From Thiolapillus brandeum (lineage in GTDB: Bacteria > Pseudomonadota > Gammaproteobacteria > Chromatiales > Chromatiaceae): DNA of 64,000 nt. Below, one piece after another: positions 53,141 through 59,718 of the stretch (positions are counted from its first letter, which is position 1; each line of letters begins with the position of its first letter). The notes under the pieces were generated by a model that saw only the letters and a program-made list of their open reading frames with translations, had not been told where the DNA came from and did no database searches. The translations under genes were made by a program, and so were the position numbers. The stretch is taken from the NCBI RefSeq assembly GCF_000828615.1, contig NZ_AP012273.1, forward strand, positions 2,604,001 through 2,668,000, in the 5' to 3' direction.

Positions 53141-53177
53141 AACCGGGAAGGCAGCCAGAGCCGCCTTCCCGCCGGTT
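53141..53177 (-). promoter_or_regulatory. Stem-loop between dsrC and dsrM
   Basis: GGGAAGGC (53145-53152) pairs with GCCTTCCC (53163-53170), with further AACC/GGTT pairing outside a 3-base bulge. On the transcript the 5' arm reads AGGCGGCUC in the loop region, shared with the hairpin after dsrA. There is no T run, so it is more likely a stability or processing signal than a terminator. Confidence 0.6.
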
Positions 53178-53187
53178 CAATCTGCGA

Positions 53188-53520
53188 TCAAACGCAGCCG
53201 GTCGGCTTGGGCAGGCCGGCGTAACGGCATGCCTGCTTGCCAGGACCGTAAGGGAACAGGCCATACAGGTACTTGCTGTTACCTTTTTCCTTGCCCAGGC
53301 GCTTGCCTACGGCTTTGGTCAGTACACGAACCGCAGGGGCGATCTGGTATTCCTCGTAATACTCACGCAGGAAGTTGATAATGTCCCAGTGATCCTGAGT
53401 CAGTTCCAGATCATCTTCCTTGGCCATAACTTCAGCTACACCAGGAACCCAATCGTTCAGGTTTACCAGGTAACCCTCTTCGTCAGTCTCTAAAGTCTTA
53501 CCATCTACTTCGATAGGCAT
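53188..53520 (-). CDS. dsrC: DsrC, sulfur-carrier substrate of the Dsr pathway
   Basis: 110 residues. The two functional Cys of the C-terminal arm are both present, Cys98 (KQACRYAGLPKP) and Cys109 (PTGCV), separated by ten residues as in true DsrC. The rest matches the DsrC/TusE fold, with LTQDHWDIINFLREYY near the middle. It accepts persulfide from DsrEFH and presents sulfur to DsrAB. Confidence 0.97.
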   Translation of the reverse strand: MPIEVDGKTLETDEEGYLVNLNDWVPGVAEVMAKEDDLELTQDHWDIINFLREYYEEYQIAPAVRVLTKAVGKRLGKEKGNSKYLYGLFPYGPGKQACRYAGLPKPTGCV

Positions 53521-55889: not shown

Positions 55890-57152
55890 TCAGCCGGCAG
55901 CCTTGTGCTCTTCCCACTTGGCGGCTTCTTCGTCCCAGCCGTCCATGCGAACGTAGCTGCTGGTACGAGGATGATTGATCATGTTCGGATCGATATCCAC
56001 GCCAATACCTTCGAGGAAATTGGCCAAGCCAATACGCTCGATCATCTCACCGGTACGCTCATGCTCCAGAGCATTCTCGGCGAAGAAGTCGATGCATTCC
56101 TCAGCCAGCTCCACCAGCTTTTCGTAATCTTCATCGGTATCCAGCTTCATGAACGGAATCAGGACGGTACCGAACAGATCGCCGATCTTCAGGGTACGCT
56201 TACCACCGATAAGAATGGTGACACCTTTGTCATCGCCCGCAGACAATGCCTTGGTCATGACGTTGATGCAGTGCATGCAACGAACGCAGTCCTTGTTGTT
56301 GACCTCAAGGGTATCGTCATCATTCAACGACAGAGAAGCAGTAGGACAGCGGCTGACAACATTGTCGACAACGTACTTGCGGCCCTTCTTCTCAACGAAT
56401 GCCTTGACTTCATCCTGGTTGACTTTCATGTCATCGCGCCAGGTGCCGATGATGGACATATCCGCACGCTGGATGGAGTTGGTGCAATCATTGGCGCAAC
56501 CGGATACCTTGAACTTGAACTTGTAAGGCAGTGCCGGGCGGTGCATGTCGTCCTGGAAGTTGTTCAGCAACACACGGTTGATCTTCATCTCGTCAGCGCA
56601 GGAATGCTCGCAACGCGCTGCACCCACACAGGACATACCGGTACGTACGCAGGGACCGGCGCCGCCGAGATCCCAGCCGATGGCGTTCATTTCATCGAAG
56701 AAAGGCTGAATCGCGTCGGAATCCATACCGACCAGCATCAGGTTACCGGTTTGTCCGTGCAGGCAGATCATGCCGGAACCGTATTTCTCATCCAGATCCA
56801 TGATCTGACGCAACATATCAGTGGTGTAATGGAAACCACCTGGAGGCTGAATGCGCATGGTGTGGAATTCCTGCGCTTCAGGGAACCTGGAACTTCCGTC
56901 TTCGTTCTTCAGCTCGGTGAAACGGGGGATAATGCCGCCGCCATAGCCGAATACGGAGATGGTGCCGCCCTTCCAGTAGCCTTTACGGGTTTCATAAGAA
57001 GTTTCCAGCTGACCCAACAGGTCGTTCGCCATGCCGTTGATTCGCTCACTGGGGTGCTCGTCACGCAGACGCTGAATGCCCTTGATAAAACTGGGCCATG
57101 GGCCGTCTACGAGCTGGTCAATCATGGGTGTTTCATGCTTGTCGATCGCCAT
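55890..57152 (-). CDS. dsrA: DsrA, reverse dissimilatory sulfite reductase alpha subunit
   Basis: About 420 residues (A. vinosum DsrA is 417). Siroheme/[4Fe-4S] ligands are Cys175 and 181 (SCVGAARCEHSC) and Cys219 and 223 (GCANDCTN). The ferredoxin insert has CPTAS and CVRCMHCINVM. The ATG at 57152 has AGGAGA upstream and matches the family start; the frame is open further upstream but without similarity. First gene of the dsrABEFHCMKLJOPNRS operon. Confidence 0.97.
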   Translation of the reverse strand: MAIDKHETPMIDQLVDGPWPSFIKGIQRLRDEHPSERINGMANDLLGQLETSYETRKGYWKGGTISVFGYGGGIIPRFTELKNEDGSSRFPEAQEFHTMRIQPPGGFHYTTDMLRQIMDLDEKYGSGMICLHGQTGNLMLVGMDSDAIQPFFDEMNAIGWDLGGAGPCVRTGMSCVGAARCEHSCADEMKINRVLLNNFQDDMHRPALPYKFKFKVSGCANDCTNSIQRADMSIIGTWRDDMKVNQDEVKAFVEKKGRKYVVDNVVSRCPTASLSLNDDDTLEVNNKDCVRCMHCINVMTKALSAGDDKGVTILIGGKRTLKIGDLFGTVLIPFMKLDTDEDYEKLVELAEECIDFFAENALEHERTGEMIERIGLANFLEGIGVDIDPNMINHPRTSSYVRMDGWDEEAAKWEEHKAAG

Positions 57153-57474
57153 TTTGGGTTTCTCCTGACTAGATCGTGAATTGCTTGCGGTTTTTTTTGC
57201 GAACCACCGAAACCCGTGTTTCAGTGCTTCAGTAACTCTTTCGTCGTCACTCCTGGTGTTGACAACCACGCACCCATCAGGGAACTGATTTATCAACGAG
57301 CGTCAATATAGCCGAGGAGCAACAGACTGGAAACTCCACCTTCGGGGTGGCACACCGACCGGCTTATATCCCATTGGGGATAGATCGGATCCCTGCCTCC
57401 CTAACGCATCATACACAGATCATTGTTTTCAATGACAAAACCGGTTTTCTGAAGATGCCCAAACAACAACCAAC

Positions 57475-57676: not shown

Positions 57677-57877
57677 ATGAGCAACGATGTCCTTACCCTG
57701 AGCAATATACTCATATCGAATCACGACCTGGAGAACTTCGAGGAGCTGTTGCAGCTGGTCAAGGTTTTCGCCCAAAGAGGCGAGCGCTTCCTCCAGTTCG
57801 ATGTCAAACCCGAGTTTCCGGATACGCCGGAGGATTGGGAAGACCGCCTGGAAGCCGCTTTCAGCAGCCGCTACTGA
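57677..57877 (+). CDS. Conserved hypothetical protein, 66 aa
   Basis: Not recognised. Short, acidic and soluble, with one helical segment (DLENFEELLQLVKVFAQRG). It has no Cys. Its stop forms TGATG with the next start, and a perfect FNR-type box lies upstream, so it is the first gene of a four-gene operon facing dsrA. Confidence 0.72.
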   Translation: MSNDVLTLSNILISNHDLENFEELLQLVKVFAQRGERFLQFDVKPEFPDTPEDWEDRLEAAFSSRY

Positions 57878-58587
57878 TGGTCATGGATTTTCACAACCCG
57901 GACAAGCTCGAAGACACTGTGGCCGATTCCGCCAACATGGATGCGGTGGAAAAGGCCCGCCTGGAAGGCGAACTGGTGGAGCTGCAATCCCGTCTGCCGG
58001 AAATTTCGGATGTCGGAGAAAAGGCCCGGCTGCAACGGGACATGGGGCGCATTCTGGCGGATCTGAAAAGAGGTGATGAGGCCTGGCCCTTGTGCCGCGA
58101 GGCTTTCGAGCATTTTCTCACCACGAAAAACTGGGAAGCTGCCGCTGACTGCTGCAACCTGATGTACCTCAGCGACCAATCCGACTCCCTGGTTGCCCTG
58201 GGCCAGGGCGTCTGGCTGGGGGTCACCTACCCCATCAACCCCGAGATATCCGTAGAGCTTCTGCACCATATCATCGACGACACACCGGATGACTCCGATG
58301 GTGCTGCCGTGGCTGCAGCAACCGCTGCTTTCATCGTGGATGTGCGCACCCGGGATCATCCCCTGCGGGAAGACCTGCTGTTTTTCACCCAGCAGATGCT
58401 GGGCAAGGTGGCCAATCGCCATAGCGGCGTCAGTGATCAGGCCCAGTTCAGTTACTGGATAGAGAAACTCGAGCTGGATCAACCCGACAAATTCCTGGTG
58501 CGTCTGCGTAATATCGTAGACGTGCTGGTTCAGGACGACTGGTGGTTCGACCGTGAGGCCTTGCAGGCCGGGATTCCCGAGGATTGA
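57877..58587 (+). CDS. Conserved hypothetical helical protein, 236 aa
   Basis: Not recognised. The product is acidic and mostly helical. An N-terminal coiled coil (EKARLEGELVELQSRL, ARLQRDMGRILADLKR) leads to TPR-like helical pairs (WPLCREAFEHFLTTKNWEAAADCCNLMYL). The TPR resemblance is by appearance only and would fit a scaffold. The start ATG shares a base with the previous stop, and the stop is followed at once by the Cas6-like gene. Confidence 0.72.
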   Translation: MVMDFHNPDKLEDTVADSANMDAVEKARLEGELVELQSRLPEISDVGEKARLQRDMGRILADLKRGDEAWPLCREAFEHFLTTKNWEAAADCCNLMYLSDQSDSLVALGQGVWLGVTYPINPEISVELLHHIIDDTPDDSDGAAVAAATAAFIVDVRTRDHPLREDLLFFTQQMLGKVANRHSGVSDQAQFSYWIEKLELDQPDKFLVRLRNIVDVLVQDDWWFDREALQAGIPED

Positions 58588-58589
58588 GC

Positions 58590-59282
58590 ATGTTGTGGGA
58601 AGACGACAAGGTTGAGAAGCCACAGACCAGCAGTGAAACCGTTGACCTGGCTTTTTCCATGCAATGCCGGCAGCTGCCCGTGGATCACTTGCACCCTCTG
58701 AGCCAGGCCCTGGCACAGGTTCTACCACAGATGCGCGACAACCGCATTGCGGTTCACGAGATCCATATCGCCGGCTCACAGAACGGCTGGGAGCGTCCGG
58801 ATCCGTCCCAGGGCCAGCATCTCATGCCATCCCGCCGTACACGTATGACCCTGCGCGTTCCCGCAGACCACGCAGTAGAGGTCGCCAACAAGTTACAGGG
58901 CATCACTCTGGACATCGATGGTTGCGAGTTGACCCTGGGCAAAGCCAAGGCAAAACCCCTGTCCAGCCACGATACCCTCTACGCACGCCATGTAGTGATG
59001 CTCGACGACGAATGGGACGATGAGAATCTGTTTCTGCAGCGCATGGCAGAGGAACTTGACCGGCAGGACATCCAGATACGCAAAGCCCTGTGCGGCAAGG
59101 GCAGCCATATTGCAACACCAAACGGACCTTTGCATACCCGCAGCCTGATGATCGCTGATCTCAGTCCTTCCGATTCCCTCAGATTGCAACAACAGGGTCT
59201 GGGAGAACACCAGCACCTGGGCTGCGGTATCTTTCTCCCCATGAAGGGCATTCAGGCAGTGCCATCTCCCGGGGATGACTAG
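58590..59282 (+). CDS. Cas6/Cmx6-like (type I-MYXAN) RNA endonuclease-family protein, orphan
   Basis: About 230 residues resembling the Cas6 family of subtype I-MYXAN along its length: VDLAFSM and LPVDHLHPLSQAL at the N-terminus, VHEIHIAG, TRMTLRVPADHA then LQGITLDIDGCELTLG, LYARHVVM, and the C-terminal Gly-rich SLRLQQQGLGEHQHLGCGIF. Cas6 proteins bind and cut CRISPR RNA stem-loops. No CRISPR array or other cas gene is in the window; instead it lies between a hypothetical gene and a DsrC-like gene. Candidate catalytic His residues (DH, EIH) are present, but activity is unproven. The ATG at 58590 follows GAGG; a TTG at 58584 is an alternative. Confidence 0.78.
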   Translation: MLWEDDKVEKPQTSSETVDLAFSMQCRQLPVDHLHPLSQALAQVLPQMRDNRIAVHEIHIAGSQNGWERPDPSQGQHLMPSRRTRMTLRVPADHAVEVANKLQGITLDIDGCELTLGKAKAKPLSSHDTLYARHVVMLDDEWDDENLFLQRMAEELDRQDIQIRKALCGKGSHIATPNGPLHTRSLMIADLSPSDSLRLQQQGLGEHQHLGCGIFLPMKGIQAVPSPGDD

Positions 59283-59373
59283 TCAACCAGAATTTAATAG
59301 AATTCTAATCTTGCAAAGAAAATCATCGCCTGCTCATGGGCAGGTAACGGCAATTCGACCAGGAGGTATCAGC

Positions 59374-59718
59374 ATGTCCTATGAAATCAATGGCAAGACC
59401 GTGGAAACCGACGCCAATGGCTATCTCGTCGACATCGGCGACTGGAATGAAGACGTTGGCAAGGCTATCGCGGAAACTGAAGGTGTTGAACTGACTGACG
59501 AACATTGGGACGTCATCAACTACCTGCGTGATGCCTACATCAATGAGAACGGTCATCAGCCCAACAACCGGGAAATGATCAAGGCCATGAGCAAGAAATG
59601 GGGCCGCAAGATTGGCTCAAAAGATCTGTTCGTACTCTTCCCGGGCGGCGGCGGTCCCTCCAAGCAGGCAGCCAAGATCGGCGGTCTGCCCGAAAGCCGA
59701 CGCAAAGGCGGTTATTGA
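59374..59718 (+). CDS. DsrC/TusE-family protein lacking both cysteines (RspA type)
   Basis: 114 residues with the full DsrC/TusE fold: NGKTVETDANGYLVDIGDW at the N-terminus and LTDEHWDVINYLRDAY in the middle. The C-terminal arm reads KQAAKIGGLPESRRKGGY, so the Cys of DsrC/TusE is Ala100 and the final Cys is absent; it cannot carry persulfide by the usual chemistry. Such no-Cys homologues have been called RspA and proposed to be regulatory. The ATG at 59374 is set by AGGAGG six bases upstream; an ATG at 59275 would overlap the Cas6-like gene. It ends the operon at a strong terminator. Confidence 0.88.
   Translation: MSYEINGKTVETDANGYLVDIGDWNEDVGKAIAETEGVELTDEHWDVINYLRDAYINENGHQPNNREMIKAMSKKWGRKIGSKDLFVLFPGGGGPSKQAAKIGGLPESRRKGGY

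Follow-up and report, generated by a model that had tools for sequence, protein, structure and literature searches.

A Cas6-family protein tied to the dsr operon of sulfur-oxidizing bacteria, outside CRISPR and beside a DsrC-like protein without the functional cysteines

We analyzed a 64-kb stretch of the chromosome of Thiolapillus brandeum (contig NZ_AP012273.1; hereafter the window), in which a gene of the Cas6 family, known from CRISPR (clustered regularly interspaced short palindromic repeats) systems, faces the operon of the reverse dissimilatory sulfite reductase (rDsr) pathway and appears to serve this pathway in place of CRISPR. The operon starts with dsrA on the minus strand (55890..57152; TIGR02064 E-value 8.5e-171, start codon at 57152 checked) and continues with dsrB, E, F, H, C, M, K and L, named by similarity and order; its genuine dsrC (53188-53520) encodes both DsrC cysteines. 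Four genes on the plus strand point away from dsrA: g1 (57677..57877), which encodes an acidic protein of 66 aa; g2 (57877..58587; 236 aa), which overlaps the stop codon of g1 by 1 nt; the Cas6-family gene (58590..59282; 230 aa), identified by profiles, conservation, fold and tree; and a DsrC-like gene (59374..59718; 114 aa), whose product has the DsrC/TusE fold and a (R)RKGGY tail, and lacks the two functional cysteines.

An earlier note, made from the sequence alone, had recognized the third gene as Cas6-like, of the I-MYXAN type. The profile search it asked for confirms the family (PF09559: 203.1 bits, E-value 5.3e-60, cut-off 26.7; TIGR02807 cas6_cmx6: 104.2 bits, cut-off 98.85), and the Cas6 models of PADLOC also match; the I-MYXAN type is upheld less firmly, since the TIGR02807 score passes by a narrow margin. 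The ferredoxin-like fold was also recovered, the structural model predicting a double ferredoxin-like Cas6 fold that spans the whole chain. The sequence has a histidine (H33) at the start of helix 1, an NGWxRP motif at 65-70 and a Gly-rich loop, GLGEHQHLGCG, near the C terminus, of which G203, G205, G211 and G213 are invariant in 50 sequences. H33, which in the model directly precedes helix 34-44, is kept in 154 of 155 main-lineage sequences ("main-lineage" here and in the set of 134 below means all sequences without a CRISPR-like label, a minority of them from loci with no dsr in view). A histidine in helix 1 is the catalytic residue in other Cas6 proteins, and H33 would match its place, by position only.

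A repeat scan found no CRISPR array in the window. A scan of 206 loci likewise found none at the dsr-linked ones, and the four deep-lineage loci described below have none either, within the flanks examined in each case. The window also contains no cas1, the genome's sole match to which lies outside it; the cas-family scan covered part of the window proteins, so the earlier statement that neither an array nor another cas gene is present holds for the array and, as regards cas genes, for the proteins scanned. An array outside the window that might explain the gene was also sought: the same chromosome has a type I-E locus (cas1e, cas6e, cas5e, cas7e, cas11e) about 1.03 Mb from the dsr-linked Cas6, with an array of some 37 repeat units near 1.63 Mb (contig C1), and this locus comes with a cas6e of its own. 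Some genomes of the order possess a second PF09559 copy, and five of these were fetched (L146-L150). L146 and L148, whose neighbors were scanned, adjoin Cas3, Cas8b and Cas5, and L146 additionally Cas7 and Cas4/Cas1; L147, L149 and L150 we count as CRISPR copies from their sequence similarity and tree position. The dsr-linked Cas6 is not a CRISPR gene.

Of 210 genomes of the order, 188 contain PF09559; all 14 named control genomes lack it. In a draw of 369 Gammaproteobacteria genomes it occurs in 118 and dsrA in 117: 110 genomes have both, 8 only Cas6, 7 only dsrA and 244 neither (Fisher P-value 1.5e-74, kinship ignored). Among 55 relatives (own genome counted) Cas6 is present in 36, and the gene tracks dsr and not cas, as the earlier note had proposed: 34 relatives have both Cas6 and dsrA, 2 only Cas6, 1 only dsrA and 18 neither (phi 0.88), whereas for cas1 the corresponding numbers are 20, 16, 4 and 15 (phi 0.33). 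The dsrA count comprises 34 genomes over the cut-off and one (G027) with a split match; 42 of the 55 match the dsrA profile at E 0.001, and those not counted are distant sulfite reductases. Both Cas6-only relatives hold dsrB. Of the eight Cas6-only genomes in the class draw, one holds dsrB (G427), one a dsrB fragment (G276) and six neither; in the dsrA-only genome G332, g1 lies at a contig edge, so the missing Cas6 looks like an assembly gap. One scan of viral contigs confirmed no phage-borne copies.

The linkage is also visible at the level of gene order. Of 56 family loci, 10 had flanks too short for the synteny count; in 39 of the remaining 46 family representatives Cas6 and dsrA are at most 7.5 kb apart, and g1, g2 and the DsrC-like gene are found near Cas6 in 37, 18 and 36, respectively. 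A draw of 398 genomes from the phylum yielded PF09559 in five, namely our own and four others; in all four of these deep-lineage loci dsrABEFHC faces Cas6 and the DsrC-like gene comes next, while g1 and g2 are absent. The four-gene set described earlier is the local arrangement; the pair of Cas6 and the DsrC-like gene is what the deep lineages share, g1 being widespread in the main lineage and g2 less so. In the unrooted PF09559 tree, whose bootstrap had not settled, a branch with support 96/84 splits the main gamma clade (134 rows) from the rest; the four deep-lineage copies (L208-L211) fall outside this clade, hence one or several recruitments are both possible. Profile and fold agree, the placement is not random and no nearby array explains the gene, the three points on which the earlier note had staked its proposal. 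That a Cas6 fold is here at work outside CRISPR and tied to dsr we regard as virtually certain, and profile, fold, synteny and co-occurrence together strongly support the co-option of a Cas6-family protein into sulfur metabolism.

Seven of the 46 families show no dsrA linkage; among these, g1 lies near Cas6 in L085, L165 and L203, and the DsrC-like gene in L165, where a Cas6 with Asn in place of H33 sits beside both partners, away from dsr. The g1-Cas6 pair of L085 and L203 is preceded by a gene that, read by eye, we take to encode a TauD/TfdA-like dioxygenase. In L083 a dsr-linked Cas6 is flanked by different genes, of 72 aa before it and 188 aa after it, which replace g1, g2 and the DsrC-like gene. 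Several Cas6-containing genomes carry a second dsrA, with dsrB too where found (L244, L246-L249, L251-L253); no dsrE, dsrH or dsrC was detected near these copies, and the palindrome discussed below is absent from the 700 nt upstream of them.

The two remaining genes of the set, reported as unrecognized in the earlier note, indeed have no significant match in Pfam or NCBIfam. An alignment of 37 g1 sequences has 10 invariant columns (consensus MLxLSEIL...RMDVKPPFPDTPEDWEDRLEAAFS), and no convincing PDB or Pfam relative of g1 was found. The model of g2 is all-helical and resembles tetratricopeptide repeats (TPR), its best structural matches being mostly TPR proteins. A relationship of g2 to Cas11/Cse2 was considered and not adopted: PF09485 reached only 4 of 53 members (best E-value 0.013), and Cas11 is not among the best 50 structural matches of the g2 model, a result that does not by itself rule such a relationship out.

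The DsrC-like protein exceeds the cut-offs of PF04358 (115.1 vs. 24.9 bits) and TIGR03342 (102.3 vs. 53.5 bits), and both DsrC cysteines are absent, in agreement with its first description as a DsrC/TusE-fold protein without the sulfur-carrying residues. The penultimate Cys is present in none of 123 DsrC-like sequences (the distinct sequences above 100 bits in the first 206 loci), compared with 70 of 71 real DsrC proteins; 113 of the 123 contain no Cys whatever and 121 have a KGGY-type tail, and the four deep-lineage partners likewise end in GKGGY. In view of the missing penultimate Cys, the DsrC-like protein shares the fold family, but is not a functional DsrC or TusE. Strict retention of the tail despite the lost chemistry suggests that it could act as a sensor, competitor or adaptor. 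Its fold is presumably helix-turn-helix-like.

Upstream of dsrA we found an unstranded palindrome, TATCCC-N4-GGGATA (57367..57382); the presumed dsrA promoter is marked by a -10-like hexamer, TATATT (57305..57310, minus strand), which is a consensus match only. The exact palindrome occurs in 25 of the 55 relatives, usually once per genome, and 23 of its 28 sites lie directly upstream of dsrA; the reversed control pattern is found in none of the same relatives. The TATCCC/GGGATA stem is nearly fixed and the center A/T-rich. An imperfect second site is mostly placed 33 bp away (19 of 33 scored), about three helical turns nearer the promoter. A loose form of the pattern is present in 66 of 88 upstream regions and absent from most of a further fetched set, as well as from several families that have Cas6. 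Genome G042 has the palindrome at dsrA and Cas6 on another contig, and the Cas6-less G961 (L268) also has the palindrome, so the site does not depend on Cas6. The palindrome as an RNA substrate of Cas6, resembling a CRISPR-repeat hairpin, was ruled out as the main explanation because of the fixed stem, the A/T-rich center, the second site at 33 bp and the position upstream of the presumed promoter. It is probably a DNA operator and looks like that of a dedicated regulator.

A better candidate for an RNA site is the hairpin in the dsrC-dsrM spacer (53144..53171, minus strand; 12-bp stem, 4-nt loop), whose role we can only propose. Hairpins of this kind (stem 7-15 bp, loop 3-8, at most -12 kcal/mol) occur in 33 of 43 loci with Cas6 (L080 skipped, two loci from family f1 included), in 2 of the 4 deep-lineage loci and in 2 of 12 loci without Cas6; pooled, 35 of 47 vs. 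2 of 12 (P-value 0.0004, kinship uncorrected). At -8 kcal/mol, 79% of 71 spacers have a hairpin vs. 19% after shuffling. The 5' arm contains more G than C in 31 of 33 cases. The other spacers show modest excesses over shuffled sequences at the same energy, namely 35% vs. 17% between Cas6 and the DsrC-like gene and 42% vs. 20% in the 200 nt before dsrA; hairpins behind the DsrC-like gene (77% vs. 32%) are probably terminators. Rfam at gathering scores detects only a tRNA in the window, and a permissive search adds three weak, unconvincing matches.

A further stem-loop is located at the start of dsrA (CGAUY-N-GUCA...UGGC-RAUCG, about 57140-57185, minus strand), with the ribosome-binding site in its loop; conservation of this element is seen in the Sedimenticola and Chromatiales sets. 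Its column-shuffle z-scores are -3.3 in 12 Sedimenticola, -9.2 in 13 Chromatiales and -1.0 in 5 others. As a general Cas6 site this stem was rejected: the mean z-score over 39 Cas6-containing families is -0.13, GTCAGGAG occurs in 4 of the 39, and the loci without Cas6 (n = 8) have a mean of -0.87, a trend that if anything runs in the wrong direction.

The earlier note suggested that the Cas6-like protein may bind or cut dsr mRNA hairpins or a tRNA, with the DsrC-like protein as regulator. We favor an RNA role on dsr transcripts, which agrees with the Cas6 fold, with H33 and the Gly-rich loop, and with the occurrence of the hairpin alongside Cas6; one hairpin, that after dsrC, shows the association expected of an RNA site, with exceptions both ways. 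To a dsr-dedicated Cas6 that works on some RNA we assign a probability of about 0.5. The most likely form of this role, action on the dsrC-dsrM hairpin, is a tentative proposal, which on balance we doubt. If so, Cas6 would bind the hairpin and perhaps cut at the base of its stem; the dsrABEFHC mRNA would then end in a protecting stem, and the dsrMK... part would be made or decay separately. The DsrC-like protein, which cannot carry sulfur, would be the likely partner that tells Cas6 the state of the DsrC system. One can go further and picture a Cas6 endonuclease that was recruited when proteobacterial sulfur oxidation was still young and that is dedicated to processing the dsr message, cutting at the hairpin behind dsrC and gated by a sulfur-dead DsrC mimic. 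The cut would then fix the proportion between the soluble Dsr proteins and the membrane complex, and the mimic would gate Cas6 by the sulfur load of the real DsrC. This extended version we consider unlikely as a whole.

A number of observations weigh against the RNA role or its proposed site. At the position of H33, L165 has N and L211 has Y, and in the alignment with the solved structure of a Cas6 from a CRISPR-associated transposon (CAST) the latter also has N there. The main-lineage proteins have a median isoelectric point (pI) of 5.97 (n = 134), a median net charge of -4.7 and a net positive charge in only 22 of 134 cases, and the four deep-lineage dsr-linked copies have a pI of 5.87-7.41, in contrast to 9.69-10.65 and a charge of +7.2 to +17.6 in the five CRISPR I-B copies, whose basic RGKRRVxRxK stretch the dsr-linked proteins also lack; the absence of a strong net positive charge tends to disfavor ordinary binding in the manner of CRISPR RNA (crRNA). 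The hairpin is missing in 12 of the 47 loci with Cas6 and present in two of the 12 without it; of the latter 12, 10 belong to two genera of a single family (f167), which makes the association phylogenetically non-independent, and the remaining two lie in incomplete genomes (G279 and G288, with a completeness of 78% and 81%; the hairpin occurs in one of them), whose Cas6-less status is unsure. The best stem was chosen for each locus, so the pairing arises by selection, with the shuffles and the Cas6-less loci as controls; the arm sequences vary among families and are not conserved. A U-rich, attenuator-like tail follows 6 of 33 hairpins, and attenuation is possible at some loci; operon hairpins of such kind need no Cas6. 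Finally, in the two f167 genera (g245 and g524) dsrA is present in 11 of 17 genomes, including the one-contig genome G953, and PF09559 in none, which means that an rDsr pathway can do without Cas6; a third genus of the family (G969) has both. The loci L262-L271 of the first two genera, with dsrABEFHC and without Cas6, provide a natural control for Cas6 function.

Three other explanations have to be considered beside the RNA role. That Cas6 still serves CRISPR, acting in trans on arrays elsewhere in the genome, would agree with its profile and fold, but the genome's type I-E locus already has a Cas6e, cas1 is undetected in 16 of the 36 relatives with Cas6 and present in four without the dsr-type Cas6, and, of the five second PF09559 copies, both with scanned neighbors sit in type I-B cas operons; this reading is close to refuted. 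More serious, though clearly less probable than action on RNA, is a purely protein-protein role, in which the Cas6 fold would be a mere scaffold and, together with the DsrC-like decoy, would bind the proteins that DsrC normally partners (DsrAB, DsrEFH or DsrK) and so serve in their assembly, storage or inhibition. The missing charge, the residues invariant in this lineage and absent or rare in the five CRISPR copies (W3, N65, W67, R69, P70, R83, R133, R184) and the DsrC mimic as usual partner (36 of 46 families, all four deep-lineage loci) favor protein binding, either instead of or in addition to an RNA role, and the predicted resemblance of g2, where present, to TPR-type protein-binding repeats points the same way. 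Yet two features typical of RNA-processing Cas6 proteins, H33 and the Gly-rich loop, are nearly invariant, and many of the invariant residues are Arg or His, as in a nucleic-acid or anion site.

The DsrC-like protein might instead, alone or with Cas6, be a dedicated dsr transcription regulator that binds the dsrA palindrome as DNA. Its exact recurrence at dsrA, with none in the reversed control, its fixed stem and A/T-rich center, and the second site 33 bp away are the behavior of a DNA operator, and DsrC of A. vinosum has been described to bind DNA upstream of dsr (PMC5944118, citing Grimm 2010). However, the palindrome is independent of Cas6 in G042 and G961 and lacking in several Cas6-containing families, and we regard such a regulator as improbable, more so than any of the RNA proposals above.

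In the sampled Pseudomonadota genomes, PF09559, named "Cas6 Crispr", marks sulfur oxidizers far better than CRISPR; as a consequence, many proteins of the family receive a wrong label in automatic annotation and may be counted in CRISPR surveys. The dsr-linked Cas6 is a nearly constant and apparently unstudied component of a main bacterial sulfur-oxidizing pathway, also present in animal symbionts such as that of Solemya velum (L059). Should it act on RNA, a CRISPR RNA-processing family would be working as a metabolic gene regulator; should the early-recruitment scenario be true, a CRISPR RNA endonuclease family would carry out natural operon processing in energy metabolism under the control of a sulfur sensor. 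How dsr expression is tuned is an old question, which can now be addressed directly by the deletion of one gene.

Compared with known systems, the usual divergent neighbor of Cas6 is the rDsr cluster of sulfur oxidizers, dsrABEFHCMKLJOPN. We found no paper linking Cas6 to dsr among the open-licence literature in PubMed Central (PMC), and the accessible parts of PMC5944118, PMC4287430 and PMC3397948 mention no Cas6 at the rDsr cluster. A DsrC-like gene (THSYN_22565) is recorded close to the dsr cluster THSYN_22480, 22490-22545 in PMC5944118, and DsrC homologs without the two cysteines, outside the dsr operon and without Cas6, in the Solemya velum symbiont (PMC4287430, in whose available text the words "cas6" and "crispr" do not occur). 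The DsrC-like protein passes both curated cut-offs of the DsrC/TusE/DsvC family (PF04358, TIGR03342), but has neither the penultimate nor the second Cys of its members and ends in the (R)RKGGY tail instead. The Cas6 of the type I-B CAST (PDB 8fcj, chain B), which according to the title of its entry works in Cascade with crRNA, differs from the dsr-linked Cas6 by the lack of the NGWxRP insertion and by N at the position of H33. The type I-B second copies (L146-L150), which share a genome with a dsr-linked copy, have in common with it the family PF09559, H33 and the Gly-rich loop, but are strongly basic and form one separate long-branch group.

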